From the NCBI GenBank assembly GCA_903813345.2, contig CAIIXF020000003.1, positions 25,063,248-25,127,247 on the forward strand: DNA of 64,000 bases, given 5' to 3'. Positions 9,091 through 62,400 of the stretch are shown one piece after another; the first letter of the stretch is position 1, and the number at the start of each line of letters is the position of its first letter. A program made the translations under genes and the position numbers. A model generated the notes under the pieces. That model saw only the letters and a list, made by a program, of their open reading frames with translations. It ran no database searches and was not told the origin of the DNA. This DNA is from Owenia fusiformis (lineage: Eukaryota > Annelida > Polychaeta > Sabellida > Oweniidae).

Positions 9091-10866
9091 TTACACAGTT
9101 GTACTTCCATTTCTTCGGTTTAAAGCAGTAATCTCAGCTGGTGTACAATTTCCTTCGCGGATACTCTGTTTCCGCTTCCGTTTTAGACACAAATGGACAA
9201 TATCTGCAATGAGTTCGAAGACCTCAGTTAATGTTATAATAGATATTCCCAACCAGAGGCCAAGTTGTCCACCCACGTCTGATATTAGTTGAATACCAGT
9301 ATAGTCTTTTGTTTCCGTGATTTTCACCACATTTGTGTCATATAAGTATACGTTAAGTCTTGCAAATCTGTCAACTGTTTTTTCTTGTTCAGTAACATTC
9401 AGAGCTTGAGCGTTTTCAGCACCAAAATAATACGTTCTCTGACCTTCTTGGAAGCGCCTTTCGAATCTTCTAGAAATGAATAAGTCCCTGTAAACATCCT
9501 GTTTGTGTTGTTGGCCTGGCCACAACGAATTACTATAAAAGAATTCGTAGGAAAGGTCCTTGCAAGGCGGATGGCAGTTGCAGTTTTCAGTGATTGCAAT
9601 ATGCTCGTGAGAGCCACTAGTCTCGATATCACGCATGCATATCATGCGCTTCAACCATCTGGCCTTCAACTCCTTGCACGATTCATTTCGGCGGGCAAAA
9701 GGCCCAAAAATGCATTTTCGTGGGATGTCATCAAATTTTGCGCAAAAATCAACACCATTGACCTCGGGAAAAGTCGGAAGCACAACGTCCAAGCAACCAC
9801 AACCGTCCTTCACTTCTCGCGAGAGTAGGTTCTGTAAACATTTTTTTCTGCACGATGTCATTGTGTATCTATAACTAGCCTTATCGCTAAAAACTCCCTT
9901 GGTTGTTTCTGTGCAGTTGCCATAGGGACGACCAAGTCGGGTGTTTTCAGTGGTCTTTACGCCAATGGATACGGAGTATCCAGGCATTATATCGAACCCT
10001 TCAGTTGCGGGATGGGGTTGCGTGTCTGGCGGGTGAATAACTACTCTCACACCTCCACTTCCGGCTAGTGGGTCCCGGATGTCATGTTCAACGATACCTG
10101 GTAGTTTTACCTTTGTGCCAATTTTGATTTCGTTGTGCAGTTTTGGTATGTACATGACAATGGACAATGCGTTTTCAATCCCCTCTGCTAAAGTCTTCAG
10201 ACTTCCGGCTATGACTGACGCATTAAATGTGAAGCAGTTAAAGTAATACGGATCAAATACTGTCTTAAAATGTTCAAAGGAGCATTCCTGCCTTGCATAT
10301 CTACAAAACGCAATCAGCTCTGCTGGTTCTACCCCTGGGAATGTGATACTTTTATTCAAATTAGCAGCCAATGTTAATCTCGAGGACAGCGATGGGAAAA
10401 ACTCAGTTTTGAGATCATGTCTATCTATCAGTCCTTCTAAGTAGCTCGGTTCCAGTACATAAGACATAGACTTTTTTAAGAACGTGTCAAAGTACCATTT
10501 TTCAAAATCAGAAACATTTTTTGATATAACCCAAGGTTTACGTCGCATACGATGTTCCATCTGTTCCTGTCGAAGTTTGTAAATTTTATGAATCACAAAA
10601 GGGTCCATGGCATGGACGGAACAAACCGTCACAGAGGGAAACGCAACTGGTTCCTGCACGACCTTCACATCAACGCTTTTCGGATATCCAAAGAATTTTT
10701 GTAGGAGAAGCGCTAATTCAAAAATGAACACCCCTAGAGCAGCTAGGCATATCAAAGACCAGAAAATCTTACCCGGAATGGTTTGCGCTCGTATAAGTTT
10801 TGGCACTCCATGTATTGTAGTTCCTGAAGCAAAGCGCTGAACGACGTCGTGAATTCTCTTGGCCAT
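9091..10866 (-). CDS. DEG/ENaC family sodium channel subunit, copy 1 (intronless ORF)
   Basis: The 591-residue product is a two-transmembrane, amiloride-sensitive-type Na+ channel subunit; family members work as trimers in the plasma membrane and may be gated by protons, peptides or force. Visible landmarks: the gating His-Gly at residues 19-20 (TTIHGVP), TM1 at about 34-57, the post-TM1 motif FPSVTVC at 76-82, a large Cys-rich extracellular domain (for example SCRKKC, CGC, CNCHPPC), and TM2 at about 530-560 with the GLWLGIS signature whose G-I-S at 540-542 is the selectivity filter. The frame is open 12 codons further upstream, but I choose the ATG at 10866 because the paralogue at 14349 starts at the aligned residue and the context (AAATATGG) is good. 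A possible 5'UTR splice acceptor (TTTATTGCAG) ends at 10889. Length is normal for the family. The ligand cannot be deduced. Confidence 0.93.
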   Translation of the reverse strand: MAKRIHDVVQRFASGTTIHGVPKLIRAQTIPGKIFWSLICLAALGVFIFELALLLQKFFGYPKSVDVKVVQEPVAFPSVTVCSVHAMDPFVIHKIYKLRQEQMEHRMRRKPWVISKNVSDFEKWYFDTFLKKSMSYVLEPSYLEGLIDRHDLKTEFFPSLSSRLTLAANLNKSITFPGVEPAELIAFCRYARQECSFEHFKTVFDPYYFNCFTFNASVIAGSLKTLAEGIENALSIVMYIPKLHNEIKIGTKVKLPGIVEHDIRDPLAGSGGVRVVIHPPDTQPHPATEGFDIMPGYSVSIGVKTTENTRLGRPYGNCTETTKGVFSDKASYRYTMTSCRKKCLQNLLSREVKDGCGCLDVVLPTFPEVNGVDFCAKFDDIPRKCIFGPFARRNESCKELKARWLKRMICMRDIETSGSHEHIAITENCNCHPPCKDLSYEFFYSNSLWPGQQHKQDVYRDLFISRRFERRFQEGQRTYYFGAENAQALNVTEQEKTVDRFARLNVYLYDTNVVKITETKDYTGIQLISDVGGQLGLWLGISIITLTEVFELIADIVHLCLKRKRKQSIREGNCTPAEITALNRRNGSTTV

Positions 10867-12716
10867 ATTTAGTTTTATAATACTAGAACTGCAATAAACC
10901 ATAATCTTTCATAACAATATCCTAGTCGCTTTTAAATCACAAACACTATTTTGGAGGCCTAATGTTTTGCATGTATAGCATACATTCTATTCCAGTCAAT
11001 TAAATTATTTAAATCCAAACTGGATACCACCATTTTTGTATCTATGACGCACAAAAATAACATCGTTCCTAAGTTAACGTTCAGTAATTAGTTTTTTCAT
11101 TTCCACACATGCATAAATCCAATAGGGTGAATAGATTAACGTCTCTTTTGTTGAATTTCACCAAACGACTATACCGCCTTTTACATCTAATTTCTTTATT
11201 ATGTGGCACTCGCTGTACATAAAGTTGTGCTCAGCATCCCGCGATGCATTAATCGACTAATATTCTCGCCGCTGGTTTTAGACGAATAACTCGTCGTTCT
11301 TGCATTTACTGTATGTTCAATCTAGATATTTATGACTTATTTTCTTATAATCAAATAAGTTGATCAATAATTAGGTTCCAGAGTCACGGAATTATCAAAA
11401 AGACATCCAATTAGACCTTTGGATCACATACTGCATAAATATGTCAGATTCAGGCGATAATTGTTGAAAAGCAATCACTTTAAATATTTTTACGTAAGCA
11501 GATATTGATGTTAACATTTAATTTTTGATAGTAGCTAAACCTTAAAGGAACATTCCTGACGAGGTTGGATTTTCAGAAATATAGCGGTCAATAATAATTT
11601 GGGAACGATGAAAAAATGTTTATTTAGGGAAAATTAGGTTAGTTCGATCACGATTTTAACGCTCAGCCTCTAAACAATTCTAGACTAAGGAACTCTTTTT
11701 GTAAGATAGATATCAAAAATAAGATGAAATATGAGAAAATATTATATTCCGAGGCTCGACCATGACTTATAGGGAGAAAAAACATATGACCTCATTTTCT
11801 CAGTTTCCATTTCGGTAATTGATTAATATTTTTGGTAATTTTTTGCCGTTGCCGCAACTGCCTTTTTTCTAGCCACGCCAATGCTCTTGAAAAAACAGAA
11901 TAAATATGATTAAATAGGATACCTATACTTTAGAGACATCTTTATAAACAGATCGACCTCATTTCGTTATTGGATAACATGAACAGACTATTAAAGTACT
12001 TGAACAACGCTTCTGTCTTGTTACCGTTTCCGATGCAGGGTTTAGGTTTTACTTCTTTCACAATTTTTCCTAAGATGACAAAATGTTTGTTTGCATGCTT
12101 TCTTTCGATTGGTGAAGTGTAGATATGTTAAATCAGAGGTTCATTTCTATGAACACATGTATACAGTAACAGTCACGCAAATTGTGTTGTACCAGTGCCT
12201 TTAATTTTTCATAATGCACTGACTGAGCAGTGCATTACTCTTTCAAATGAGGGGTGACTGCATATCATCCATTTGTTAATTTCAGTCAATGTTATGATTT
12301 TCCAAATAAGTTCTCATACTTTTTCTCCAAAATTCTGCATCAAAATACTTCTTCTTCCCAATAATATAATGATTTTGATAAATAAATCCTTGAAACATAA
12401 AATCTTAAAAATACTTATTTAACTAGTTGTAAGACTTATTCATTTTTCCGGGAAAGAAATACTTATATAAGTTTTATGAAATACTGTGTTTGGATTGATT
12501 GGAATCGGACACACCTTGCCTAGCTATGTGTGAATGTAACATACACTACAAAAAACATCGGAAAAAATCTACCTTGATCCACGGGAATTTGTTTTTTGGA
12601 ATGCCTGGTCGAGGATAAAAGTTGTGAACATTGAAATTTAAAAGCCTTCGTGCATGTACTTTCAATTCTGAAAATGCACCCAGGCTTCGCCTTCGTGCAA
12701 TATATGAATCGGTTAT
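10867..12716. other. Spacer between divergent DEG/ENaC genes, proximal half
   Basis: This is the upstream side of copy 1. It is AT-rich with no coding feature. If the two channels share control elements they would lie between 10867 and 14348, but I cannot point to one. Confidence 0.35.
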
Positions 12717-12931: not shown

Positions 12932-14348
12932 GCTTTAAAAGTCCCAATTAGAATAATACAGGATTCTCTCTTCCTTAAATATACTTTTCAATTATTGATG
13001 AATGGATTAAAGCAACTTCGATGTTTAGTATCCCTCTGTTCGACTCATAATAGGTATTTTATCAGTTTACTATGCTAATGTTCAATAGTTTTAATGCCTA
13101 AAAACTAGTTAATAAACCCGAGAGAATTATTTGAAAATAAAACGAGATGCAAATGAAACAACAAATGTGTTTTGCTATATCACGGTGATCCAGTGGTGTC
13201 ATGCTATGTCAACATGAACAGCTCGGAGGTTTTTTCGAAGGTTCACGGTTGATAAGTTGATAACGTTGAGATCAGAGTGCATTCGTTTTCTCATTTTGTC
13301 TTCTATTTATAGATGCTGTTCATATACTTCTTTGAGAGTAAGGACTGGGTACTGTATTGCAAACCGTTTTTTGGTCAGCTTTATCTAATATAAATTTCAT
13401 TTTTAGTTCATTTTTACATTTAAATATATTTAAATTAAAGTTTAAAGAGAGAGAGAAGTTTCTCTACTTAATTTAGAAAACTAAACATTGTTTAATAGGA
13501 CCATAAAAAGGTCATTTCATGATTGATTTTCAACATGAATTTTATTCCATCGGTAATTATATAATATGACATTGACCTCGGGAAATATGATATTGACCCT
13601 GTAACCAGCTTTCATACGATTTAAGTGTTATTATATTCTGAATACACTGAAAATCACATCGGAAGCATCATCGGCAGACTAAAGGATTGATTCTTATGCA
13701 AGGAGAATGAATTCAATGTTGAGTTTGCATAAACCACTGTATATTTAATAAAAATGTGCCAATGGGGCAGTATTAGATTAGTCGGCCATTAGACGAATGT
13801 TAATTTGAATAAAACGTATCTAACTTACGCTTGAGGGAATTTGTAGTCGAATAAATGGCACTGCAGTATACGGTAATTGAATTGGAAGTGATTGTGTCAA
13901 GTCAGAAATGTCTAACAGACGTTGACTGATCTCAAAGTCACGATAGGAGCAGAAATGACACGAAACAGAAGATTATTTGTGATATAAATGCCAATATGTG
14001 AGGATAACGCGAGTCATGACTTATTGCAGGAATAGATAAATAGTGAGACGAGTGAACATTAAGAGAGATCAAATTGTTTGCAGAAAATTCTAAGTTTGGC
14101 CGTTCGACTCTTCCATTAGAAACAGGATGATAAGCATCTGCGATGCTGCATTATATATTATTAATTCAAAGGGCGAGTATTGCGTCAAAAATAATCAAAT
14201 ACAACTATAAGATTATGCAGATGTTTATTGAATTTTGAGTCCCATGTCGTACGTTTACGATGTACTATACAGCGTGAATGAAATATTGGCTAAAGTAGAA
14301 GAAGTTGAAATATAGAGATAATACAATATATATTTATAGGAACACATA
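12932..14348. other. Spacer upstream of DEG/ENaC copy 2
   Basis: AT-rich and non-coding. A possible 5'UTR splice acceptor (ATATTTATAG) ends at 14339, ten bases before the ATG of the next gene. No other element is evident. Confidence 0.35.
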
Positions 14349-16178
14349 ATGGTACGTATGTTTGATGAAGTTGTTCAACATTTTGCTTCTGGTACGACAA
14401 TACACGGTGTTCCAAAGCTATTGAAAGCACAGACTATACAAGGAAAGATATTTTGGTCAGTGATCTGCCTCTCAGCTTTAGGGGTATTTATATTTGAACT
14501 TGTACTGCTACTGAGCAAATACTTTGAACATCCAAAGAGTGTCGACATAAAGATCGTACAGGAGCCTGTCGCTTTTCCATCTGTCTCAGTGTGTTCTGTG
14601 TATGCAATAGACCCCTTCGTGATACATGAAATATACAAACTCAAAACTGGAACTCAAAAGGATAGCGCTATGGCAACGGATGACGTGGGCTATAGATTTA
14701 CGCGGGATATGTCAGGTGAATTGGATGACACACAGTTTGGTGTTGAGAATGCGTTCATTAAATGGTATCTCGATGATTTTATAGAAAAGTCCAGTGATTT
14801 TATGGGAAAACAAGAGAATAGATTAGCTATTAAACGTATGCTGGGAAGTGAAGCTGAAGAGAAATATCGGACGAAATTCTTGCCTTCATTAGCGTCGAGA
14901 CTTACTCTAACAGCCAATATGTTACACGAGCACATTGCCTTTCCTGGTATTAAGCCTAAAGAATTCATAGCCCTTTGTCGTTACGCTAGGAAAGAGTGTT
15001 CATACAAACATTTCACAACTGTGTTTGACCCGTACTATTATGATTGTTTCACATTTAACGCATCCATCATAGCAGGTGCGCGTAAAACATTGGCTGAAGG
15101 AATTGAAAATGCATTGTCTCTCGTGATGTACCTTCCCGAGCTACACAGAGATTTGAAATTCAACAAGATGAAAACCCACCTCCCTGGTATTTTAGGCCAT
15201 GACCTCCGCGACCCACTGTCCGGAAGTGGAGGAGTTCGCGTAGTGATACACGCTCCTGGTACACATCCGTATCCGGCCACTGACGGATTTGACGTAATGC
15301 CAGGAAGTTCTGTCTCAATAGGAGTAAAAACAACAGAAAACATACGCCTCGGGTGGCCCTACGGTAATTGTCAGAAAGAGGAAGATGATACAATCCAAAT
15401 CCAACAAAAGACGAACACGTACAAATACACAATGACATCGTGTCGGGAAAAATGTATACAAAGTAATCTTTTGATGAATAAGCCCAAAGGTTGCGAATGT
15501 CTCGATGTAAATCTGCCTACGTTTACTGAAGTAGAACACGGTGAATATTGCGCTCGGTTTGATGATGTACCCAAACATTGTCAAAACAAAACTGAATGTG
15601 CGGAACTGAAGGCAAGATGGTTAAAACGTATGAACTGTATGCACGATAAAGAAGCTAATAATAACTCTTTAGTCGGAGAATGTAACTGCCATCCTCCATG
15701 TGAGGATGTGGACTACGATTTTTTCTACAGTAGTACACCGTGGCCGGATGCCAATTACGTCAATGGCGTCTACCGAGATCTCTTCATCTCGCACAAGTTC
15801 CAGGATAATTTTGACAATGCACAGAAAAGGACTGCTTACTTTGGTGATAAGATAGAATCAGATCTAGACAACGAGGGGAGAATTAAGAAAACGGTTGGTA
15901 GACTTGCCCGACTAAATGTATATCTATATGATACGAATGTCGTTAAGATAACGGAGAACGAAGACTACACGGGGATACAGTTGATTTCAGATGTTGGTGG
16001 ACAACTCGGACTCTGGCTAGGGGTCTCTATTATCACCCTCACTGAAGTCTTTGAGCTTATCGCACACATAATACATATAGTGTGCAAAAGAGACGACAAA
16101 AGAGACGTGGATGTTCAACATGAAGAGCTGGATTATCAAAGACTTCCAATTCCTGAAATACCGCACAATAATGAATAA
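14349..16178 (+). CDS. DEG/ENaC family sodium channel subunit, copy 2 (intronless ORF)
   Basis: The 609-residue product is a paralogue of the minus-strand channel at 9091-10866, similar from end to end. Landmarks are the gating His-Gly at 19-20, TM1 at about 34-57, FPSVSVC at 76-82, the Cys-rich ectodomain (SCREKC, CECLD, CNCHPPC), and TM2 at about 548-578 with GLWLGVS, whose G-V-S at 558-560 is the ion selectivity filter. It has an insertion of roughly 20 residues after the FPSVSVC segment relative to copy 1, in the finger region, and the two cytoplasmic C-terminal tails are unrelated. The ATG has A at -3 and G at +4. An AATAAA polyadenylation signal lies at about 16429. Gating stimulus and partners cannot be read from the sequence; the pair could form a heteromeric channel. 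Confidence 0.94.
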   Translation: MVRMFDEVVQHFASGTTIHGVPKLLKAQTIQGKIFWSVICLSALGVFIFELVLLLSKYFEHPKSVDIKIVQEPVAFPSVSVCSVYAIDPFVIHEIYKLKTGTQKDSAMATDDVGYRFTRDMSGELDDTQFGVENAFIKWYLDDFIEKSSDFMGKQENRLAIKRMLGSEAEEKYRTKFLPSLASRLTLTANMLHEHIAFPGIKPKEFIALCRYARKECSYKHFTTVFDPYYYDCFTFNASIIAGARKTLAEGIENALSLVMYLPELHRDLKFNKMKTHLPGILGHDLRDPLSGSGGVRVVIHAPGTHPYPATDGFDVMPGSSVSIGVKTTENIRLGWPYGNCQKEEDDTIQIQQKTNTYKYTMTSCREKCIQSNLLMNKPKGCECLDVNLPTFTEVEHGEYCARFDDVPKHCQNKTECAELKARWLKRMNCMHDKEANNNSLVGECNCHPPCEDVDYDFFYSSTPWPDANYVNGVYRDLFISHKFQDNFDNAQKRTAYFGDKIESDLDNEGRIKKTVGRLARLNVYLYDTNVVKITENEDYTGIQLISDVGGQLGLWLGVSIITLTEVFELIAHIIHIVCKRDDKRDVDVQHEELDYQRLPIPEIPHNNE

Positions 16179-16434: not shown

Positions 16435-16734
16435 TTGTGTCACCCTGTATGCTACAAAAGTGATTTAAGCCAACTTATGTTTAATTATTGAACGCTTTTA
16501 GAAATTGAATAAATCATCAATTATAGTAAGATAGCATCCGATTTTAGAATTTTTAATCTATATGAAGAATTTAATAAAGGGAATGTGTACCTTATGCAGA
16601 GGGGTATATTGACGCCATGATTCAGGTTCCATTTTTGCCCATTTGAAAATACTACTTGGAGGCCATGTGGACAGTTTACAAACACAAATTAGCAAAAATT
16701 GTAATGCATATGTCCGACAAATAGAAAAGACGAA

Positions 16735-16921
16735 TATCTGAACCAACAAGGGGGGGGGGGCAAACTTCTGGTCTGATAAAAAAGTTATGGGCCCCCAAAA
16801 CCAAAAAGTGGGCCCAAATTTTGAAATTTTGAGGCCAATTTTCTTCAAAATTTGCCCTTTTTGGCTCAAAATGTTTTGGGCCCTGCCCCCCCCCCCCCCC
16901 CAGATCCGCCAGTGCCTGCAA
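16735..16921. repeat. G/C-homopolymer-bounded degenerate repeat
   Basis: A run of ten G begins near 16751 and a run of C ends near 16900, enclosing AT-rich text with GGGCCC words, and followed by CAGATCCGCCAGTGCCTGCA. The arrangement resembles the G/C-run-bounded TIR elements at 23737, 56843 and 63683, but the ends differ, so it is a separate family. Overlapping open frames on both strands are composition artefacts. Confidence 0.55.
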
Positions 16922-18368
16922 TTGTTAATCTTTTGTCTGTGTTCGGACAGGCAAAAGTATTTTAAAAATCAAATGTTGACCCACCAAATATGTTTTCCAC
17001 TCATTAAAGCAATGAAAGATGGCGCTTGGAACAAAAAACGTCCGTTATCAATGCTCAGTATCAGAATGAGTATAACCGCAAACTTTTAAGGCGAAAAGAA
17101 AAGAAAAATCAAAACCTTCCATGTATCATTGTGTTTATTATAGAAATATACAGTTGTTGTTATATATCCAATCCGTTGTATTGTTTCTATAAATACGGAT
17201 TATAATATAAGATTTCAGTAAAAAATCATGACACATTCTTTCAAAAATGGAGATTGTGATTCACAGAAAATTCGGAAAGTGATACTAAATGATACTATAA
17301 GAATATGCTCAAGCGAATTTATTTGACTTTGTATATAAAGTAAATATCACACCACTAAAATATCATACCATTTAAATTCCCTATCGTAAAGGGTAATTTT
17401 TTATGACACGTGTGCAGTAAAATCATTAACGACCATACCTCTGTCATGTGAACATTCGGTAAAAAGTAAATAATATTGGAAAAGTTCTCCTAACGATTTT
17501 AACCTCGAAATATTGAAATCGATTTCACATTTTGGCGATATACATAAGGTGATTGACTCCAATACGAATTGGGCCATCCCTACCGTAATATATTTTTTCA
17601 GATGAATATTTGAATCGATTACATAAAATAAGATTTACGTAAATATAGCATGAAGTTCGCTCTTTTACCGAAATACTCTATTTTAATCCGTATTTTATGT
17701 AAGCAAACAATAAACTATAGTTATAGAAATAACCAATTCTTATACTAATACAGCTGTGATACATTTGCTACTTATATAGATTACCACTTTCAAAACAGTT
17801 GCTGAATTGGACGAACTGGGTTTAAAATGTCATGCTTTCAGATTATCGGTTGTAAAACGAGAGATAATATCCCCATTTTTCAAAACGAATTTATCCATCA
17901 CCACAAATTGATTCTATTATCTTATGTATTTAGAAAAAACACGGTTCGAAATAACCAAAATTTAAAAATTGTGATATTGAAATTAGAGTAATATTTTTGG
18001 AGTAAAATCATTATCAAGAATTTATATAAATTATGGCGGCTTTTTAAACTTGCTGGGGATATATCGACCATATGACAATCGGTTATGTTCTCTCTGCTGC
18101 ATAACTTCGAAATTCGAAACGGCGTCTCTGGTATTGTTAATATTGACATTGGACATATGAAATGGTTATATATCTGATTGTTTTTTGTTTAAATTCAATT
18201 GAATAAACGTATACCATACACGTAATCTTGCTTCAAAACAGTGGTCCTCCCCCTACTTCAATTCTCCAACAGATAAGGATTAGTCCAGAGTATTGAAGCA
18301 AAATTAGGTATAACAGTCAAGTGTGTTTATATACACTATAAATGTCGCAGCTCCAATATGTCTCTGGT
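16922..18368. other. Non-coding interval between DEG/ENaC copy 2 and the cGAS-like gene
   Basis: AT-rich sequence with no supported feature; convergent 3' flanks of the two genes. Confidence 0.4.
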
Positions 18369-19607
18369 TCACTTGAGCAAATCTATGTATGCTTTCTTCT
18401 GAATAATTCGATGAAGATATCCCTGCAAGTTTTCCAGTGTTGCGGGATCCTTTTCGGCAAAATGGTTGATGTTAGGGTTGAAATAATTCAAAAGCTTTTT
18501 TTCCCTAAGGCTCCTCTCAAGAAGTTGGATCATCTCTATAAAGCGCTCTGCAATCGCATCGTGACCCCAGCGCGCTCCCCTCGTCGGCATGTGAAGAAGG
18601 ATTGCCTTGAAGAAATATGAGCTGAGACAACGTAGCTGGGTATTGTTCAGCTTGATGACTTTTAAGATCTTTACGACCTTTTTACGGCATCCGTTGTCAT
18701 CATCATCGATTTGACGCATGATTTCTCGCTCTTCTCTACAGTTAGACTGCATCCAAAACTTTTCACGTTGTAATGCTGCTGCTGTGCCTAACTCCCCCTG
18801 GTTCTTTAGGTCAGGATGTGGCTTTGCGATAACCAAATCCTCCCCAATATCATAAGCAGGCGTAAAGTCGATGCCCATCAGTTTCTTGTTTCCTTCAAAG
18901 ACGTTCACAGTCGTCGCCGGACCTCCAGTTTCCATTTGATAACGCAGAGAACCACCGCCGGGAAGGCTGTCGATCCATTGTTGAAAATAGCTTTGAAACA
19001 CGCTACGTACCTTCTGAGGGGATAGATCCTCGTTACCTCTGGCATCAGATACCATACATTTCTGATATGGCTTTGGTTGTTCTAAAGCTCTCATTCCCGC
19101 CTGCGCTTCATTTACCGTTGCCGGTTCTGGCTTTGACAGGTTCCATTGGGGAGGAGGCGCACCCATAGGTCTAGTTGACACAACATATTCTGTATGGACG
19201 AAGACAGGTCCAAACTGAGGCGGTTGCTGTATTTGCCGCGGAGCTTGTGGTCTTGGTAAGACAATAGCGTTATCTAATGGTCGACAGGTCCTTATGGTAC
19301 AAAATCCACGATCATCCTTGTCGATAACTTCCCAATCAACATGGCCTTTAAGAAGCATCAAAAGGTCAAATTCGTCGGCAGATCCAACCTTCAGGCCTTC
19401 ATAGACGCTACCGATGTTTTCTAGTTGCAGGATCTCGACGTTCTTTTTCTTGGACAAATATTCTTTGATATTCTTTTTCACGTTTTCTACGATTTCCTTG
19501 TTTCTTTTCATCTCATCTCGTGGTATAATGACCCTTTGGTCGTAGAATAGGTTTAATTTGTCTTTCAGTAGTCGCAACTCCTGCTGCGTAGGTAAACTGG
19601 ACGCCAT
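18369..19607 (-). CDS. cGAS-like receptor / Mab-21 domain nucleotidyltransferase
   Basis: The 412-residue product covers a full Mab-21/cGAS-like fold. The nucleotidyltransferase core has Gly-Ser at 66-67 followed by acidic E79 and D81 in ADEFDLLMLL, and a third carboxylate D247 in MGIDFTPAYD; these match the GS, E-x-D and D positions that bind metal and catalyse in cGAS and OAS enzymes. The helical Mab-21 C-terminal half follows: KFW at 283-285, CRKKVVKILKVIK at 307-319, LSSYFFKAILLH at 328-339 and YFNPNINHF near 375-383. Active family members sense nucleic acids and make cyclic dinucleotides that signal through STING; others are inactive. No C-terminal zinc-ribbon insertion like that of vertebrate cGAS is obvious. 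A Pro-rich segment lies at about 118-160. The ATG at 19607 has good context, and an AG acceptor (TTTTCATTCCAG) eight bases upstream suggests a 5'UTR intron. Family assignment is firm; enzymatic activity is inference. Confidence 0.92.
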   Translation of the reverse strand: MASSLPTQQELRLLKDKLNLFYDQRVIIPRDEMKRNKEIVENVKKNIKEYLSKKKNVEILQLENIGSVYEGLKVGSADEFDLLMLLKGHVDWEVIDKDDRGFCTIRTCRPLDNAIVLPRPQAPRQIQQPPQFGPVFVHTEYVVSTRPMGAPPPQWNLSKPEPATVNEAQAGMRALEQPKPYQKCMVSDARGNEDLSPQKVRSVFQSYFQQWIDSLPGGGSLRYQMETGGPATTVNVFEGNKKLMGIDFTPAYDIGEDLVIAKPHPDLKNQGELGTAAALQREKFWMQSNCREEREIMRQIDDDDNGCRKKVVKILKVIKLNNTQLRCLSSYFFKAILLHMPTRGARWGHDAIAERFIEMIQLLERSLREKKLLNYFNPNINHFAEKDPATLENLQGYLHRIIQKKAYIDLLK

Positions 19608-19615
19608 GTTTATAT

Positions 19616-19627
19616 CTGGAATGAAAA
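19616..19627 (-). promoter_or_regulatory. Candidate 5'UTR splice acceptor of the cGAS-like gene
   Basis: On the minus strand TTTTCATTCCAG ends eight bases before the ATG. A pyrimidine-rich tract and AG are present, so the start of transcription probably lies further upstream in another exon. Confidence 0.45.
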
Positions 19628-19962
19628 CATTAGAAATGATGTAGCATCTCTGCCCAAACCGGACGATTTTGTCAGCGCATGTGAAGAATGTGACAAATCA
19701 AAAAAACATTTCAGAACGCCGGACATGCCAACACATTTAATCAAATGGGCTAGAGCTAAAAACGCAATGAATACCTATGGAACATAACTTTGATATTTTT
19801 AGCTGAAAACATCTGCAAATGTTTTTTGTAAAATTTTGGCAAGGCTGTCATAAATTAACTCATTTAAGATATTCATTTCATGGCTGACTACAACATTCAT
19901 CAATGTAACATTTAACCCCCTTTATAATATCAAAATGTGCAAGTATATGTTTGGAATTCGAA

Positions 19963-23196: not shown

Positions 23197-23687
23197 CTAT
23201 ACCAACTTATGTTCATTAGCAGCTACTACAGGTAAAAATAATAAAACAACACAAAATATCAACAAAACTACAAGATACACAAATAACAAAAATCTATCTA
23301 GGATTTGTGCAACCGTTTGCCATTCCTTTTTCCACTTTGCATTGTCACTGTCGAATGCACTTTTATCGATGATTTCCTCAGATATTGGAATCTGATTATT
23401 TGCTCCGTGTGTATAGGATCCGCCATAATTTTTTCTTCCGTCCATTTTACTTCCCCTTTTGACTGGAGACACATTATTGGAAGAGTGTTTTGAAACTCTT
23501 ATATATCCCTCCAATGAAAATGATTTGTAATGTCGCAAACACACTACTCTAGCGATCATTTCGAATGCGAAATACCTTAGCCATCTCGGCACAGGGTAAA
23601 TCGCATCGTGGTGATGCATTTGAAGAATGATCACTGTTAGAATTATGGAGCTGGCACTCAACGTCATCACTGCCGCCAAATAAAGTG
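23197..23687 (-). CDS. Gene A exon 7 (M3, cytoplasmic loop, M4)
   Basis: 491 bases including the stop. It encodes M3 (LYLAAVMTLSASSIILTVII), the conserved HHHDAIYPVPRWLRYFAFE start of the cytoplasmic loop, a short variable loop and M4. The acceptor is ATCCGTTCCAG. Confidence 0.9.
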
Positions 23688-26600
23688 CTGGAACGGATGA
23701 ATAAAATATAGAAAACATTGGTCAAAACCTGGATGGTCATGCCCATATACCAGGGGGGAGCTGGGGAGCGGGACCCCCTGGCCAGAAATTCTTTTAAAAT
23801 CAATCAGTTTTCACCATTCTTAGCACTTTTCGCATGCTTTTTAGCCAAAACTGTCAAAAAGCTCCCCTGGAAAATACCCCGTTGGTAAAAGCTGGCAACG
23901 GGCAAGACCTAGTAATTATCTGAGATTTACTATTAAAGACTCTCTTCGTGGATAGTCAGTCGAGCTTCACAATCGTAAAATCAAAGATCAGAGGTAAGGA
24001 CCAAATGTATATTTTACGGTCAAAGTATAGGTCTATGCTCAGTCTACGTTTTTTACCAATCAAAAGCAATGGAGTCTGAAATTAATCACTGTTAAAGATC
24101 AACAGTTTATGTTATGCATTGATAGATGGGAGTAGTGATTGCCTATGCAAATTAATAGACCACTACTGCACCATCTTTCTGTTGACCTGTAACTAAACAT
24201 TATGTCATATCAGGTTCGAGAGTACAGAAACACAGGCTGATATCGAAAAATTTGTCCGCTGTGACGGAGCGTGCTATTTTGCATAGAAGCACTAATAAGA
24301 AACCCACGCAATTTATTTTTTACTCATATGTTTCGCTATACCATAGAAAATAAATTTTTCGATACCAGCCTGTGAGTAAGAGGCAATTGGCAGGGGTACT
24401 AACCTAAAAGTGGCGTGCTATCCGATGTCTTTGGAATCTGTTCGGCAACCATAAGGAGGAAAACAGAGAATGATAAAAGAACCGTGATCCCCATGGACAC
24501 TTTCTCACCAGCTTCCGGCGGAAGTAGAAAAACAAAAGTCACCAGGATTGTCAAGATGATACATGGTACGACAATGTGAACTATATGATATCGTGGCTTT
24601 CTTTTCAGAAAAAGAATGAAATCTGCAGTTGGATAGGGCTTCTTATTTTGAAAATAATCATTGAAGACGACAATATCAGTGCTCACGATATTCCATTCAC
24701 CGTTTTCCGTATATTTTGCCAAGACAACACCTGGAAAGGAATCAAAAACATAATATATAGGAGCTATTTTCTGAGACACATCCAACAATTATCATCTTTA
24801 AAGTCTTTCAATTCTTACTAAATTATAGGTTGACCAATCTTGGGTTCTAAAAGAAATTAATTGACAACATTATTTTAATTACCCGTGTTTACAAGCCTCG
24901 ACGTACATTTTTAAATTTTGGGAATCGATCAATGTGAAAAAGGTGACGTCGGGAACGTAGGCTGATTCAAATGAGCCCCATGCTGGCCAAATGATCTTCG
25001 GGGGAAAAATGCGAAAAACAGCTCTGTTCCTACCAGACTTAGATGACAGGTTTTGGTGAAAACCATGATACATCCAGTTGGCAAACCTCAATGTGCAGAT
25101 TTGAGAGTCAAATGGGAAGAAAGTAACATCGAGGGCGCATGCTGAGTCAAACGAACCACCTGGTGACCACAATACTTCCCCTGTATGAGCTAGGTCCACT
25201 CTAAAGTCTTCGTAGAAAGACGAATCGATTAACTTGTTGGCGCTATGAAACGGATAATGTTTTAAATTATAACACAATAATTCATAAACAATACAAAAAA
25301 TGCAACCAAGACGTTTCAAGTGTGATTTCGTCTTTTCAAATGCATGTACCTTTTCAGAATGTACCTTTTTGAGTACCTTTTGAGAAGGCCGATCGGCTTC
25401 ATAGTCTTTATGTATAGCATAGATTGAAATAAGTGACTGTTCTATAATAGGAAACCATGTTTGGTGTTTGAGAATGAACTAGTTTTGGATGATCTAATAG
25501 TTCTGACGGGGACCTCAGTGTATAATAAAACCCTTGTTAGATAATAAACAAAAGCCTAAGTTCACCTGTTTCCTAAATTCACATCTGGGAGCCAAAGTTC
25601 CTGTGCAGGTAGTATCAGCTCAGTTATGTTAGAAAACTCCTCTGGTTTCCACTGGAGAAACTCATCTATCCATACCTGATTGCAATTCATGAGATTAGCA
25701 TGTAGAAACATTTGCAAATGGAACATGATAACAAATAAATCACTCCTCTCGGTACAATTAACCTTTTTTCGATTTCATCTGGGGTTTGTATACACATGAG
25801 GATGGTATACATTCGTGTTATTTTCACTAAAACCGTATCAAGGACCCGGATCAAAGGTTACAATCAACTACTCGATTTGATCCATCGTCCGTTAATAGAA
25901 ACGAATAAAATCAGTGATTCTGATTTATCGGGCACTCTAGGACTGAAATTCTCGGTTAATTAGAAATACCAATGGATTAACTTGATATGCAATTCAGATT
26001 TGCATACTTTCGATACAGCATTTTAACCCAAAAATGAGTTCTCATAAACCTTTTTTATCAAGTTAAACTGCAGTAAACTTACAAATCTCAGCCAGCCAAA
26101 CGTTTTCAAGATCTGGTTTTTCTCATCCTGAAAATTAGATAAATTGTTACAAATGGAACATTATGATCAAAGATGCAAATGCCGAGTCCTCCAATAAACT
26201 CATACAAAAATAAAAATGCTTTTATTTTTTAATTTCAAACATTTTCTATGAAACTTTCACAAATAGAAAAATGATTTATGTAGTGAGATACAAAAATAAT
26301 TGTGTTGCTATGATCGGTCCAGAGTTCTTGTTTCCATGGTAACTGGTGTTTTTGGTCGTTCGGGCCAATATTTCTTTGCTCCTGGCAATGTGTTCTGCTT
26401 GCAAATCAGGGATAAGCGAAAGATGAGAAAGATTGAACAATTTTTGAAAGTCACTATTGCTATATAATCTAGAAATTCCGATGTTGTGTGTTGACGAGTG
26501 GCCATGTGACACAAATTCTTTATCATAGAATGGTAACTCGTTTTGTCTTTAAAGCGGCTCTAAGGTCTGTGGAGAGAAAAATGGAGAAATTTTACCTTTT

Positions 26601-33538: not shown

Positions 33539-34062
33539 TTAAACGTTCTGATATTTTTGTTGTCTTACATCTGCTATCACAGGTAGCACAAACAAAAATA
33601 CACAAAATATTAACAATATAACAAGATACACAATTAGTAGGAATCTATCTAGGATCTGTGCAACCTTTTGCCATTCCTCTTTCCTCCTTGTTTCATTACA
33701 GTCGATTGCACTGCCATCTATAATTGCAGGATCATCGGACATTTGGATCACGGTGTCATCTTTTCCCGCATCTTTTGTACTGCTTGTTTCCTTATGTCTA
33801 TTACATCTGGCATCTTTACTTTCACCAAAGTCCAATCTTGGTGACACATTGTTTTCTGAATTACTTGAAACTCTACGATATTCGTCCAATGAAAATATCT
33901 TGTAACGTTGCAAACAGACTACTTTTAGGACTATCTCGAATGCGAAATATCTTAGCCATCTCGGCACAGGGTAAATCGCATCGTGGTGATGCATTTGAAG
34001 AATGGTCACCGTTAGAATTATGGAACTGGCACTCAACGTCATCAGTGCCGCCAAATAAAGTG
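33539..34062 (-). CDS. Gene B exon 7 (M3, cytoplasmic loop, M4)
   Basis: 524 bases including the stop, acceptor ACCAATTCCAG. M3 and the first 35 residues of the loop are almost identical to gene A; the variable loop is longer (by 11 residues) and M4 (FLLIVYLVILLIFCVFLFVL) is conserved. Confidence 0.87.
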
Positions 34063-34103
34063 CTGGAATTGGTAGATCAATACATAGAGGACATGTAGCA
34101 GCG

Positions 34104-34192
34104 ATAACTACTAACTCGCTTCCGTAGGCCGTAGCTTCCCAAAATCGATTTTTGAACCTACGGCGGCCGTAAGGAAATTGTGAATGAGGCAG
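34104..34192. repeat. Family W repeat fragment
   Basis: The block GGCCGTAGCTTCCCAAAATC is shared with loci near 37440-37620 and 58335-58470, and the complementary word CTACGGCGGCCGT lies about 45 bases away, so the fragment is itself a small inverted repeat. Confidence 0.6.
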
Positions 34193-34285
34193 TGAGGTTA
34201 AAGTATAAATCTTAATTATACATTGATTATTTCAGCTATAAAACGTAACTTTTCTTCAACTTGAAAAGTAACCCCCCCCCCCCCT

Positions 34286-34688: not shown

Positions 34689-35390
34689 AGCTATATTTTT
34701 GCTAACTCGTTCATTATGGTACGTTCACACCAACGGCGCTTTGATGGCGCTTTAAAGCGGCTTGTAAAGCGGCACCAAAGCGTAACAAAGCTTAATTAAA
34801 GCGTCGGGGTCGTAATAGGTCGTAGAAAAGCTCGGGAGTAAAGCGGGATATTCGGCAAGAGCGCTAAAAAATTTAAACTGTTTAAGCGTTCGCACCAACG
34901 GCGCTTTGATGGCGCTTTAAAGCGGATTGTAAAGCGGCACCAAAGCGTAACAAAGCTTGATTAAAGCGTCGGGATCGTAATAGGTCGTAGAAAAGTTCGG
35001 AGTAAAGCGGGATATTCGGCAAGAGCGCCAAAAATTGTTAAACTGTTTAAAAATTTTGGGCGCTCTGTTACGAATTGATTGAAGCGCCGAGAGCGTATCA
35101 AAGCTTAACAAAACGTAACAAAGCTCAACAAAGCTTGACTCAAAGCGTAGGAAAGCTTAACACAGCTTGGTTCAAAGCGGGGACCCCAGTCTATTCACGG
35201 TCTGTTACCACTTGACACGCTTCGTTAAGATGTCTCAAGATTTGCTACGATCTGGCATGAAGATCTGGCACGAGGTCAGACGCTTTCATCAATATCTGAC
35301 ACTCTTTGTTACACTTTCCTGAGGGACTCTCAAGCTTTCCAGCGAATTGAGACGCTTTAATCAAGGATTGAAAGGCTTTGCTAGGCTTTG

Positions 35391-48406: not shown

Positions 48407-50119
48407 TTATCGTCGTTTACCGCTCTTTCTTCCTCCGGTTGCTGCACCCTTTGATCCCATATATGACTTTTCTTTGCGGGACAACCCACCAAATGGGCTC
48501 ATGCCTTTTGCCGATTTGCGTTCCCCGTACATTTGATACCCACTGACATTCGGTCTCTCGGTTCCTTGACCTGGGCGTTCTCCGAAACCATGGTTGTTAT
48601 AGTAATAGTCTCTCTCGTATCGATTCAGTTGGTACAGTTTTCCAGGCTTGTCTCTCATCCTATGAGAACGTCTCATCATCGCTGTTGATGAACCTGTCAA
48701 ACCAAATCCCACCTTGGAACTGGTAGAATGGCGTCTCCCCACGTGCTTTTCACTGCCGTTAGACGAACCACTCTCTCTGCTATCAGTACTCTTTGAGTCG
48801 TCATCGTCATCGTCCCACCAGTTGAAGACTGCCTTTCCTCCGTTTGCGACAGTTCGTTCTTTAGTTTCTTGGAGTTCCTTGAATAATTTGGACTCCGATT
48901 CATCTGATTCCATAGGGTCTTTCTTGGTAATTTCAGCTTTTTGTTTTTCCTTGGTTTTCGTATCAGTTACGCTATTATCCGAATCGGAGTTGGAATGTGG
49001 CATGCCGCTGTCTTCGCTCTCTCTCGCAGTGTCCTTGGGTGTCGCTCTTAGATTTTCTACCGTAACTGCAGTATCTTTCGGTTGAATCGGAACTTCTGGT
49101 TGGCGTTTATTTTTAGATTTCTTCAGTCGATTCCTAAACTTTAAGATCGAGAGACAGTTAATTGTAGGAGATGGTGACCTTGACCGTTGATCACGTACTG
49201 ATCGAATGACTGGGATATGTCTGTGGTTCAATGGAGGTGGGCTATTCTTTTTGGTCTTAGTTTCATTCGGAGCATTATCATTTGTTATAGCAACCTTCCC
49301 TAGACGAGTATTTAACTCATCGGCCGCCGCCGGTGACCTTGACCTTCGAGCTTTTGGAGTTGCCTCTCCTTCAGAGTCAGTGTTTTCCCACCATCTAAAC
49401 TCACCTTTGCCACCTTGGGCGATACTTTTATAGTCTCTCCAAGACGCACCGGGTGGCATAGGCGCCGTTGGTTTCAATGGTTTCTTGGCCTTGCTTTTAT
49501 TCATCGATTCTTTTTTGTGTTTTTTCTCCATGCCTGATTTCTTTGTATTGACTGGATCAGTATATAATGTATTTATTTTGTTTGTATCCACAATCGTTTG
49601 TTTCCCTTTGTCCTCACTGTGTCCTAGGCACGGTGATGTTCCAGTATCAACGAGAGTTTTACGTGGTTTCTCCTTTACAGCGTTTTCTTGGTCGTTTGTG
49701 TTACTAGGCGCATCGACAAATACATCGTCTGTATTACTTTGTCCTTCGATGCTTTGTGAGTTTAAACACGTCGGCTCAGAAGAGCTTTCCTCGGGGATTT
49801 TAGGCAGATTACCGCTTGAGCAAGACGCAGAGCTCTTACGTAATGGCGCTTGGTTTACAGGTGAATCAGAGGGTACATTTGGTTCAGACTCTGAGCCCGA
49901 CCCTGATAGTTCGTCCGCACTGGTGGTACTAGATACCGAGCCTCTATTCAGTTTATTATCGTCTCCAAACCCACTATCCTGGGAAATTGTTCTTTCGAAT
50001 TTCGTATCTCGCACCGCTTCTTCTCGGAGGCGTTCGAGATTCAGCGTTCCCGCCGTATGTGCCTTCTCCTTGCCAGTCCCGGAGTAATTGTTAGCGTCCA
50101 CCTCGTCTGACATCTCCAT
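48407..50119 (-). CDS. Unrecognised low-complexity protein with duplicated GGK-F-WW-acidic motif
   Basis: The 570-residue product is mostly Ser, Lys, Glu, Asp and Pro and should be largely disordered; no signal peptide, membrane segment or known domain is seen. Two short related motifs stand out: AQGGKGEFRWWENTDSE at 235-251 and ANGGKAVFNWWDDDDDDS at 425-442, each followed by acidic/Ser residues, preceded in the first case by GASWRDYKSI. RS-like pieces (RRSRSPAAADE, QRSRSPSPT), a KKHKKESMNKSKAKK basic cluster and a Gly/Arg/Tyr-rich C-terminus (RYERDYYYNNHGFGE, ending GGRKSGKRR) suggest a nuclear or RNA/cytoskeleton-associated role, which is a guess. The ATG at 50119 has an ideal CACCATGG context. 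A splice-acceptor-like TATGATTCCAG ends 20 bases upstream of the ATG, so an upstream non-coding exon is likely. The unbroken 1.7-kb frame and its amino-acid organisation support a real gene. Confidence 0.85.
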   Translation of the reverse strand: MEMSDEVDANNYSGTGKEKAHTAGTLNLERLREEAVRDTKFERTISQDSGFGDDNKLNRGSVSSTTSADELSGSGSESEPNVPSDSPVNQAPLRKSSASCSSGNLPKIPEESSSEPTCLNSQSIEGQSNTDDVFVDAPSNTNDQENAVKEKPRKTLVDTGTSPCLGHSEDKGKQTIVDTNKINTLYTDPVNTKKSGMEKKHKKESMNKSKAKKPLKPTAPMPPGASWRDYKSIAQGGKGEFRWWENTDSEGEATPKARRSRSPAAADELNTRLGKVAITNDNAPNETKTKKNSPPPLNHRHIPVIRSVRDQRSRSPSPTINCLSILKFRNRLKKSKNKRQPEVPIQPKDTAVTVENLRATPKDTARESEDSGMPHSNSDSDNSVTDTKTKEKQKAEITKKDPMESDESESKLFKELQETKERTVANGGKAVFNWWDDDDDDSKSTDSRESGSSNGSEKHVGRRHSTSSKVGFGLTGSSTAMMRRSHRMRDKPGKLYQLNRYERDYYYNNHGFGERPGQGTERPNVSGYQMYGERKSAKGMSPFGGLSRKEKSYMGSKGAATGGRKSGKRR

Positions 50120-50138
50120 GGTGAATTAACACGCCCCC

Positions 50139-51930: not shown

Positions 51931-52319
51931 CAACTTTCATAATCTAGGTGTTTGTCAGAAGAAACTACAAGGTTGGTCTAGCTACAAGACCTTGCATACA
52001 CACACACCGTACCTGTGTGAGAAGGTTTTGAGTCAATTGTGCAAGTAGAGGGGGGCCACAGAGGCTTGTAGCTGTACAGTAGACAACTACATATACAAGG
52101 TCATATACCTGACAGATGAGTAGTTATATGTTTAAATTGATTTGGTCCATTCTATTAATTATCTATAAGTAATTATAGTACTGGATGCTATGAATCTCAG
52201 TTCATGAGTGATTCATATGGAGATTGATTGTTTATGAACGCTGCCCCTTGTGAACAGAAATAAAACAGATGAAATTTTCTGCAGAATAAGGGAACTTGGG
52301 CAAGATTGATCCCAAAACA

Positions 52320-52460
52320 GCCAATCCTGCTTAATTTCTTACAAACAATTTGGCACCAGTTGTTCGGGAGGTTCGGGGCCCTACCTCCCTCCCCACCACC
52401 ACCATTCTGTGCACTTTTCGAGTGATTTGGGGCCAGAGTTGTCAAAAGTGAACTCCATCT
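52320..52460. repeat. Degenerate family G-like fragment
   Basis: GGTTCGGGGCCCTACCTCCC, CACTTTTCGAGTGATTTGGG and TTGTCAAAAGTGAACTCC echo the core of the elements at 56843 and 63683, but no clear ends remain. Confidence 0.5.
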
Positions 52461-55400
52461 CCATTGGATTTTTTTGGAAAAATACAAGTACAAAAATATA
52501 CTTACACTATACTTAACTACCTTAATTTCAATATTTTGAGTTCGCTTCATTAAAGAGAGGTTTGTCACATTACTACTATAACTTGGCTCAGTGTTACACT
52601 GAATGAAAATGGAGATAAGATATGAAAAGGTTCCAGGAATCTAAGTGACCCATCCGTTATATGCTAACTGGCCGACTTATTTATGGGCACAAATTTCAAT
52701 CATCCGAAGGGCAAGATACAGACGATAAGAAAAAAAATTAACGTCGGCTTATACTAGAGAGATTTTCAAGGGATTAAAAGAATACAAAATGTCAAATAAA
52801 AGTCAGCTCGACAGATATATATAGTAACCTCAGGCGTGTCAGGTGTGTATGTAATATAGATATGATGTGATAAAACAAATCATCGGAATATATTTGTTAT
52901 AACATATCAAATGTCAGCGTAACCCCGTGGTGTAAAATAATAACCTTTCCCATCCATCCATCAACTACCACATTTCCGCTTTTATCATTCATGCTGCTAC
53001 TTTGACACAAGCTTCAGGAAAGTGTGGCGATTTGCATGCTACTATTTCACTTATACTTGTAAATAGACCATGTGTTATCTCGTATTTTGTTAATTACTTT
53101 ATACCCAAATGTAAGCTGTGGTTTTTAGAATTCATATTATCGTACGTTTCACTTTTCCGAAACAACTATTTGGCCTGTGTCTTAATATCACATCACTCTC
53201 ACACATAGTTTTTTGCAAGACTCGCTGGACGCTCCATTTTAGTGCCATTCTCTTCAAAATCGAATAGTACTACAATCCTTGAATACATTTTCATTGTTGG
53301 ATCCTTCAACTCATTTCTGCACTTTATCATGTATCATCTACTTTCTCTGAACCATGTGATTCTACAGTACTCCTTCTTAATCAACGTTCACAAGGTTTCT
53401 CAAACTATACAGATCTTTTCAATCGGTCTACAAACGGATACCCTACAAACTATGTGATATCTGTATCGAGAGGTAAGAATTGAATCTTGTTTGTTAATAA
53501 AGACTTCGGTATCGTTGAACAATGTATTCAACAATATATAGGCATGCATTATTACCAAAACTATCAATTCTAAATCGTTTTTCACATAATTAATAATGAT
53601 TTGGAAATATTCTAACCGCCAGTTTTGATCGTCGTTAATTAATAAGAAATACACTTACTTAGGCGCCTACGTCTTTTGTTTTGAATATCACATTGGGCTT
53701 ACAAATCATAGAATAGAAAATAACTAAAACTAAAGTCCTGTTGACTTGGAGCAGGAACATTATATTGCATGAAAAAGGTCGTTAGCTAAAAGAAATCAAT
53801 TGTAACTCTTTCAATACAACAACTTTGAATCCATTCATGAACTAATTGGCGACGTGTGTTTAAGTGTTACTTACCATGTTTTAAGTAATACCATGAAGTG
53901 ATTGTAACTGCTTTGTCCTGATGTTCAGTTTTATGTGATTTCTCTGTTTGATCTTATTTAATCTAGTTATCGTTAGATTAGAATCTAATCTGTAATCCCC
54001 GTCGAGCTCAACTCCGTTTCTTTGGCTGTATAATCTGGATTTGTGTTTTATAAGATTCTTTCTTACTTAATGTTCAGTTTGTTTGTGAATGTTTCATGAA
54101 TCCTAACAACAGAAGTTCTGAGGATTGTATTGATTTTAACAGCGACTCTTTTATGATCTTTCTGAAATTCTCAACTCTATGTTTGCTTAATCTAAAGTTT
54201 GCAAACTTGTCTTTCAACTGAAGTTCAATGCTGGTGTGTCCTGACTGAATAGTTCAAATGACTCTAAATCGAACTCAATGTGTACCTAATCGATCTGTGA
54301 TATTTTAAGTCCTCGTAATTTTAAATATTTCGGTGTTTCTTACACATGTACTTTGACGTAACCGAGCATAATTTTGCTCAAATTTACCCCTGCTAGGAAA
54401 CGTTTGACATCTGTAGTTTTCGATCAAGTTTTAGGTCACAAGTACGCTTATTTACGACCACTTCGGGCTCACCCGGTAAGCATCTGAGAATAACCCCTCT
54501 AAACGGTTCCTAACAATACTAAGTGACTAATTCTACTTCTGAAGGAACACCTTTAGAATTGTCATCATAATAAAAGTCGTGAGTAATGAAATACATACCT
54601 GTCGATATTTGAATGATCACAAATTAGCTCGCCTAATTACCACAAGATGACAATTTCAACAAAGTGGTCGTAAAACTTTTGTTTTAGATCTTAATTGAAG
54701 TGTTTCTAAATTGAATGACAACGTACTCGAACTTACTTTAAATGATCGATGAATAAGATAAGAATTTAAACTTACCTAGAAATTCTGTATTTTGCTGATC
54801 TAACAAAATATTATGATTATTCTGATCTAATTCGGAATCTAAATTCGAAATGGCGATTAAAATAAATATTTTTCTTTTATATGGCTCCTACTTTGCTGCA
54901 TCCTCCTAGAGGCTCTCGATATTTATCAATAAATCGTTTTTATTAAGTACATATGTATTCAAGACTAAATATTCAAAACATAACCTTTAAACTTCCCCTT
55001 AGTAATTACATTTGAGACCTTTATGTTTGAGTTTAATAACGGGTGTGTAACTGAAATATATTCATTAGGAACGTGATCCCTTTATTAAGCTATTATATAA
55101 ATGACATCACTTACCGACTGTTTAACACCTGTACAGATCTATTGTAAAAACCCGGGTGTAAAAAACAACGTGAAATTTGTGTGGAACTTCATGTAAAGAA
55201 TGGAACAAACATTTATCTCCCCATTCATTGAGAATGAGGCATTTGTGATAAGTAAAAATGTGTTCATGACACTTGCATGTCTACAGGGTACATAACCACT
55301 TAGGCCATAAGAAGTAGATTCTTTTTGAGTAAATCAGGAAAAACAAACACATCCAAATAACAATTACAAAGGTCTGAAAGCTAATACCATCGCATTTCGT

Positions 55401-60942: not shown

Positions 60943-61262
60943 CGACGAAATGAACCATGAAAATGTGCATATAAACGAGTAACATACAATACAAGAATGA
61001 CCACACGGAACTGAAAGTGGACTGCATGAACACAAACAGACAATGATGGCACTTTCGTTTCTAACATCAAATGTTCAATGATAATGCCATCTATATTTTA
61101 AAATATACGACGAAATGAACCATGAAAATGTTCATATAAACGAGGAACATACAAGAGTGACCACACGAAGCTGAAAATGGACTGCATGAACACAAACGGG
61201 TGATTATGGCACTGCCGTTTCTAACATCAAATGTTCAATGATAATGCCATCTTTATTTTAAT
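60943..61262. repeat. Tandem duplication, two ~160-bp units
   Basis: GACGAAATGAACCATGAAAA starts unit 1 at 60943 and unit 2 at 61109, and both units end with AACATCAAATGTTCAATGAT followed by AATGCCATCT. Divergence is modest, so the duplication is fairly recent. Confidence 0.85.
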
Positions 61263-62140
61263 AGATGTATTGTAAAACATAATGTCGGTATGTCAGGGAG
61301 CAGAAAATGTCTTTGTCAGGTTAAGAATATTATCTATTTTCAAAAGTCTCCATAATTATTTAATGAAAATACAGAATGAAATTCTGCGCGTGCTGAATTT
61401 GAAATTTCATTCTTTGTTTCCATAAATAAATTATATTACTAGTACGTGAAATCAACGCCAGACTTATAAGTCAAGGTATCGCATGCTGTAAAATGTTGCC
61501 TGTTATGATAAAAACAGATGCTTTAATTTTTCCTGATTAAAAATGCACGGGTTGGAAATGGAATAGCCTTTTGAAAAGCCAGGTATTTATATTGTTTGTT
61601 TGCGATTGTCATGGGGCATCCTCCCTCTTATATTCTGTAGCCTATTTTAATAGAGAGAATATTAGTTAGGGGGGTGACTTATCCCTCGAGGCACGATTGT
61701 TTCATATGCTAACCATTTTTAGCATGCCAACACTTACTTTATTTTTTGAAAAAAGTTACCTGATAAAATAAAATTGTTCAAATTCCTGAAATAAACGCAG
61801 AATTGTTGTACCCTTTTTGTAGTCATGACATGGAATGTTATATCTTTCGAACATACATGTAATTCTCCACTCGTCGTATATCTCATTCCTTCAAGTCCTT
61901 TTAAGAAGTAGTTTTAAACAGAAGCTCATAGAAGAGCTGAACATATATCATTATAGAATATTATTTCTAACTTTACAGATACTACCACAAACAGAACCAA
62001 AATAAATGTTTCCTACTTATTTTATATATTGTGTCATTTAAATACATGTACATGTATATGTATACATACTAGATACAGTACAAATACATATTCACCACTT
62101 CAAAGAAATCACATTAATATATTATATCATCTATATCAAG
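61263..62140. other. Non-coding, no feature seen
   Basis: No supported feature. Confidence 0.4.
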
Positions 62141-62400
62141 AAACATGCCCTCATTATATCATAAACATGCCCCTATCATATCATAAACATGCCCCTATCA
62201 TATCATAAACATGCCCTCATCATATCATAAACATACCCACATCATATCATATAGTTCTATGATATCAGAGTCACACCATATGATATCACAATCATAACAT
62301 ATGATATCACAATCATACCACACAAAATCATAGTGATACCATATGATATGATCGTCACACCATTCATATGCCATTATCATACCATAATGGCATATGAAAC
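62141..62400. repeat. 22-bp minisatellite followed by CATATGATATCACAATCATA repeats
   Basis: Five head-to-tail 22-base units (AAACATGCCCCTATCATATC plus AT) start at 62141, 62163, 62185, 62207 and 62229. They pass into shorter palindromic CATATGATATCA-type repeats up to about 62400. Confidence 0.85.

Follow-up and report, generated by a model that had tools for sequence, protein, structure and literature searches.

In this work we identified an intact open frame of 412 amino acids (AA) plus stop, on the minus strand at positions 18369–19607 of the window (the whole 64,000-nucleotide stretch of Owenia fusiformis DNA that was analysed), which encodes a nucleotidyltransferase-fold protein of the cGLR/Mab-21 superfamily. 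Our preferred reading is that it is a deep-branching animal member of this superfamily and probably an active nucleotidyltransferase; we give this reading about one chance in two, and estimate the chance that the protein is catalytic, taken separately, to be roughly between one half and two thirds. Animal cGAS-like enzymes are described as a numerous family whose members are likely to be immune sensors, and 140 of them were tested in one screen (PMC9980059). Judged by its sequence, the protein reported here belongs to a known superfamily and combines features, a complete triad among them, that are not commonly found together.

The assignment to the Mab-21/cGAS superfamily is far beyond chance. 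The 412-AA protein matches Pfam Mab-21 (PF03281, E 6.4e-12) and Mab-21_C (PF20266, E 9.9e-14), both above the curated cut-offs, and a phmmer search of the PDB places MID51 first (5.9e-22), followed by the cGAS-like receptor cGLR1 of entry 8gjy (1.7e-20), MID49 (7.1e-12) and the Mab-21 domain protein 7lt2 (5.1e-9), with weaker matches to MAB21L1 (4.3e-6) and cGAS (1.1e-5). These matches bear out a preliminary description, made from the letters alone, that had called the protein cGAS-like or Mab-21. cGAS, Mid51, Mab21, MB21D2 and ITPRI are presented as paralogues in one cGLR superfamily (PMC10732462). MID51 and 8gjy are near-tied as best solved matches and neither is close: identity is 29% over 308 columns with MID51 (MIEF1; PDB 4nxt and others), 27% with 8gjy and 24% with human cGAS, and with only the last 129 residues as query the order is reversed, 8gjy (8.7e-14) standing ahead of MID51 (1.4e-11). 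The protein scores 13.3 bits with Pfam MID51-like_C, below the cut-off of 27, whereas MID51 scores 305 bits; in both this protein and MID51 (in the latter below cut-off) the best match to the Pfam Mab-21 profile goes no further than position 134 of 197, compared with 195 in 8gjy. No second copy came up when the window was searched by tblastn (E up to 1), the gene itself being the sole match. Relatives were not confirmed among viral contigs, with the single protein, the N-block or the C-block as query, nor among genome contigs with the N-block; none were found in phages and plasmids by tblastn (E up to 1), and 8gjy had no match in 299 bacterial genomes.

The residues that the preliminary description had singled out for metal binding and catalysis are all present at the positions it gave, and in a MAFFT alignment they fall on those of cGAS: G66-S67, the activation-loop motif (19407–19412, minus strand), on G212-S213; E79 and D81, the first two carboxylates, in E79-F80-D81 (19365–19373, minus strand), on E225 and D227; and D247, the third carboxylate (18867–18869, minus strand), on D319, with T249 opposite T321. 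S67 and E79 are separated by 11 residues in all five proteins compared. Residues 241–251 around D247 form a predicted strand in both models built from the single sequence, whose confidence is poor (pLDDT 37 for the full length, 46 for residues 180–412). Two relatives reported to be without catalytic residues or activity both miss residues of the triad, as MID51 has H and Q in place of E79 and D81, and MAB21L1 has Q in place of D247. The donor site is also conserved. S329-S330-Y331 (18615–18623, minus strand) aligns with cGAS S434-S435-Y436, and E293, K316 and Y331 correspond to cGAS E383, K414 and Y436, which position the donor ATP, Y436 stacking on the donor base (PMC4897736); K334 lies opposite cGAS K439. 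The full triad and the equivalents of S288 and Y331 are shared with 8gjy, and the triad, the GS motif and the donor residues with human cGAS, unlike MID51, which has S at the place of Y436. By contrast with human cGAS, the acceptor site has changed: among the four residues that recognize guanine in cGAS, T211, R376, S378 and S380 (PMC4897736), only S378 is kept, as S288, while T211, R376 and S380 are replaced by I65, M286 and C290.

The Zn ribbon of cGAS is absent, as had been proposed from the sequence at the outset: the interval from W285 to C307 is 21 residues compared with 29 in cGAS, and contains neither a CC nor an H-CC-C pattern. Just after the place where the ribbon would stand, G306-C307-R308-K309 and the residues up to K316 (18660–18692, minus strand) carry basic positions that align with cGAS K407, K411 and K414. 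More broadly, R30, R294, K309 and K313 align with R176, K384, K407 and K411, which we take to be DNA contacts of cGAS. Because the triad is complete and the Zn ribbon missing, the 412-AA protein can plausibly be taken for a nucleotidyltransferase, but not for a DNA sensor of the cGAS type. The conserved triad, donor site and basic positions, together with a calculated pI of 8.9, would also suit what the preliminary description suggested in its most far-reaching version, a canonical cGAS-like immune sensor that makes 2'3'-cGAMP for STING, yet we regard this as improbable, given the changes at the equivalents of T211, R376 and S380, the missing Zn ribbon and an unrooted tree (below) that rejects joining the protein to 8gjy, MAB21L1 or cGAS. 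Nucleic-acid-sensing cGLRs are reported to have a pI above 8.5, and one auto-active cGLR a pI as low as 5.0 (PMC9980059). By our calculation the human cGAS core has a pI of 9.07, 8gjy of 7.72 and MID51 of 5.37, and MAB21L1 reaches 8.94, so that sensors cannot be told from other members by their pI.

The protein departs from the motif filter that Li et al. describe for cGLRs, namely h[QT]GS, [DE]h[DE]h and a spacing of X50-90 before the third acidic residue (PMC9980059). The two acidic elements are there (E79-F-D81 and I-D247-F), and so is the looser G[S/G] motif given in the same source (PMC9980059), but the activation loop reads I65-G66-S67, so that a regular expression for h[QT]GS found nothing, and 165 residues separate D81 from D247. 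This distance is 104 residues in 8gjy and 91 in human cGAS. The 8gjy protein, deposited as a cGLR, has KGS at the motif place and thus also falls outside the filter on both counts, which indicates that the filter does not define the family strictly. Filters of this kind could miss a triad-complete member that stands on the MID51 side or close to it and whose insertion takes it outside the published motifs as they are written.

The excess length comes from a Pro-rich insertion. That such an insertion lies between the E-x-D strand and the third carboxylate was correctly seen in the preliminary description, but the extent given there, about 118–160, was too narrow: residue spacing puts it at about 108–180 (19068–19286, minus strand). 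Between D81 and L195 there are 113 residues, compared with 53 in MID51, 52 in 8gjy, 47 in MAB21L1 and 43 in cGAS, a loop 60–70 residues longer than in these four relatives, while the spacing from L195 to D247 is normal (51 residues versus 45–53 in relatives). Neither Pfam nor, at E up to 10, the PDB contains a match to the inserted segment. It might be an unspliced intron, a gene-model artefact behind which a cGLR of ordinary length would be hidden. Its GC3 would suit that reading (0.36 for residues 111–185 versus 0.49), as would the frequency at which G+C-matched background stretches of the same length are also open (31 of 474); the corresponding figures are 81 of 2000 for shuffles of its own composition and 134 of 8378 for unmatched background. 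Of 1000 background stretches 0.1% attain the insertion's codon score of 0.116, which stands close to that of the core (0.135–0.139); this is weak evidence, because the core was in the training set and because the score is not frame-specific, another frame giving 0.106, which the intron reading can count in its favour. Against an intron, the insertion runs over 73 codons with no in-frame stop, and in a scan of codons 96–200 no donor scoring at least 6/9 was found between codons 96 and 165. The sequence thus makes an intron unlikely, and we give it only a slim chance. The single in-phase donor/acceptor pair spans codons 165–199; splicing there would take out the segment around L195, which is conserved, whereas the Pro-rich part would stay.

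The position of the insertion suggests what it may do. In the alignment it falls at the place of MID51 R234-R243, in the beta4-alpha4 loop, which binds Drp1 (PMC6355003), and the gap opens beside cGAS K254, next to DNA site B; site B of mouse cGAS includes K240 (PMC9675814), whose human equivalent is K254 by our numbering. Because the MID51 loop at the same place docks Drp1, the likeliest role of the Pro-rich loop is, by analogy, to hold a partner. We doubt that this partner is Drp1. Seven of the eight Drp1-binding residues of MID51 could be mapped, Y451 lying outside the string used, and the set is not matched overall: R234 corresponds to R106, E420 to R368 and D444 to E392; Y240, F241 and R243 fall within the insertion, where the alignment is unreliable, and Y448 faces a gap in one alignment and Y397 in another. 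The E420R mutation abolishes Drp1 binding by MID51 (PMC6355003), and since R368 stands at this position here, Drp1 would not be expected to bind.

MID51 is described as a catalytically dead mitochondrial receptor that binds ADP and recruits Drp1 (PMC6355003), and a second way of reading our protein follows its example, or that of shrimp Mab21: a nucleotide-binding scaffold that would bind NTP or ADP and recruit a partner through the Pro-rich loop, catalysis being vestigial. We consider this possible, though on the unlikely side. It would account for MID51 being the top solved match, for the place of the protein on the MID51/MID49 side of the unrooted tree, for an insertion on a partner-binding loop and for the changed acceptor residues, and it has a precedent in three shrimp Mab21 proteins, which are reported to act on IKK-epsilon without making cGAMP (PMC12928593). 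In the same way, human MB21D2, whose site looks complete, reportedly formed no product with the ligands offered to it (PMC8410604); these two cases show that a complete-looking site is no guarantee of activity. Speaking against a scaffold are the retention of E79, D81, D247, the GS motif and Y331, at positions where in MID51 two residues of the triad are gone and Y436 is replaced by S, and the mismatch at R368, which makes Drp1 an unlikely partner. The absence of an anchor from the sequence scanned may point the same way. MID51 and MID49 carry an N-terminal membrane anchor. No transmembrane anchor is found in the 412-AA frame, where the best 19-residue hydropathy is 0.8, and a simple scan of the 3.6 kb upstream of the gene found no anchor exon, an unseen exon being possible, so that nothing found supports mitochondrial anchoring. 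A pyrimidine-rich, splice-acceptor-like site (19616–19630, minus strand), recognized from sequence context only, lies 8 nt before the ATG and suggests an upstream exon, perhaps 5'UTR; a 5' exon upstream of the open frame is likely.

On the preferred reading, that of an active nucleotidyltransferase, the GS loop would be ordered by an activating ligand, perhaps nucleic acid in view of the pI and of the basic positions, or alternatively by a protein bound on the Pro-rich loop. With metals bound at E79, D81 and D247 to drive the reaction, transfer would then take place from the donor NTP, which stacks on Y331, to an acceptor that is not necessarily GTP, and what is formed may be a second messenger of nucleotide type or some other nucleotidylated product.

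Where the protein branches within the superfamily was addressed with unrooted and rooted trees. In an unrooted tree of eight animal sequences, this protein together with MID51 and MID49 is split from 8gjy, MAB21L1 and cGAS with support of 99/98; the split is kept in all four leave-out trees, and AU tests reject joining the protein to 8gjy (p 0.011), cGAS (p 0.015) or MAB21L1 (p 0.025). When the tree is rooted on five bacterial cyclases, the grouping with MID proteins drops to 79/75 and two alternative placements are not rejected (AU p 0.23 each). The tree program flagged long branches in both trees and an odd composition in MID49, and the trees were made without MB21D2, 7lt2, 8gjw, the Drosophila cGLRs and ITPRIP. 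The safe statement is that, in the unrooted tree, the protein lies outside the cGAS/cGLR1/MAB21L1 group, on or near the MID51 side. Membership of a catalytically dead clade, which the preliminary description had seen as speaking against an enzyme, is thus answered in part: the protein branches outside the MID51/MID49 clade, which forms a group of its own at 100/100, and keeps the residues lost there, and a position as sister to that clade is possible. The tree also bears on a role as a MAB21-type developmental factor, for which the shared Mab-21 domain architecture could be invoked. We hold this to be very improbable, as MAB21L1 is not only rejected as a neighbour by the AU test but is also a weaker match than MID51 or 8gjy and has, unlike this protein, DN for GS in addition to Q at the place of cGAS D319.

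Likeness to bacterial enzymes was found at two levels. Seven PADLOC oligonucleotide-cyclase models match the protein (E 5.1e-5 to 0.016), and among four controls 8gjy matches two models and MID51, MAB21L1 and human cGAS none, which suggests a less altered enzyme core; since human cGAS is active without any PADLOC match, such a match proves no activity. Bacterial CD-NTases thus resemble the protein by weak profile matches and by a short segment after the third acidic residue, and differ from it in that this is an animal gene with a Mab-21_C domain. The stretch from the third carboxylate to the conserved W is 37 residues here and 25 in MID51, compared with 59 in 8gjy, 60 in MAB21L1 and 55 in human cGAS. 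Measured from the third acidic residue to a helix residue, the segment has 68 residues in this protein and 53–56 in five of eight bacterial ORFs, two of these five being near-identical and the anchor residues being chosen by eye, with 61, 83 and 110 in the others. The bacterial set comprised 12 loci, of which nine were taken and seven gave a motif-bearing ORF (eight ORFs in total, five of them in the tree); the three ORFs of L088 and L090 were measured for the segment and left out of the tree. That the short segment is a derived deletion shared with MID51 was considered and rejected, five of the eight bacterial ORFs being short as well. As the bacterial ORFs are mostly short there, a short segment is probably the ancestral condition and cannot be used to prove kinship with MID51.

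If the protein does belong on the MID51 side, it may be a living enzymatic sister of MID51/MID49: the MID proteins would descend from an active synthase of a nucleotide signal that lost its carboxylates, and here the enzyme would have survived, with the Drp1-docking loop expanded into a Pro-rich arm. We offer this as a speculative scenario against which the odds are fairly long. The protein makes testable the question of whether the dead mitochondrial MID receptors came from an active nucleotide-signalling enzyme. Among the literature matches listed, no title or abstract dealt with an enzymatic protein of the MID51 side, which is no proof of absence, and there was no match for 8GJY or for MID51-like together with cGLR. 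'MID51-like' names exist in public databases, and invertebrate orthologues of the protein may already be annotated.

The rest of the window is animal-like, with two genes for amiloride-sensitive channels and fragments of neurotransmitter-gated ones. The two former are long ASC-domain frames in opposite orientation (9094–10908, minus strand, and 14340–16178, plus strand), with 57.8% identity across 600 aligned positions. The fragments of neurotransmitter-gated ion channels lie at 23200–25478 and 33542–34231 (both minus strand), and two transmembrane pieces among them are 61% identical over 166 positions, which points to duplication. A 572-AA open frame at 48410–50125 (minus strand) has no Pfam match at E up to 0.01. 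Two-copy tandem repeats are present at 34722–35050 (165-base units) and 60943–61261 (160-base units), and two adjoining tandem arrays with units of 22 and 21 bases at 62127–62363. Gly-rich or Pro-rich open frames at 16561–17086 and 52200–52640 look alike by eye and are possibly a dispersed repeat.
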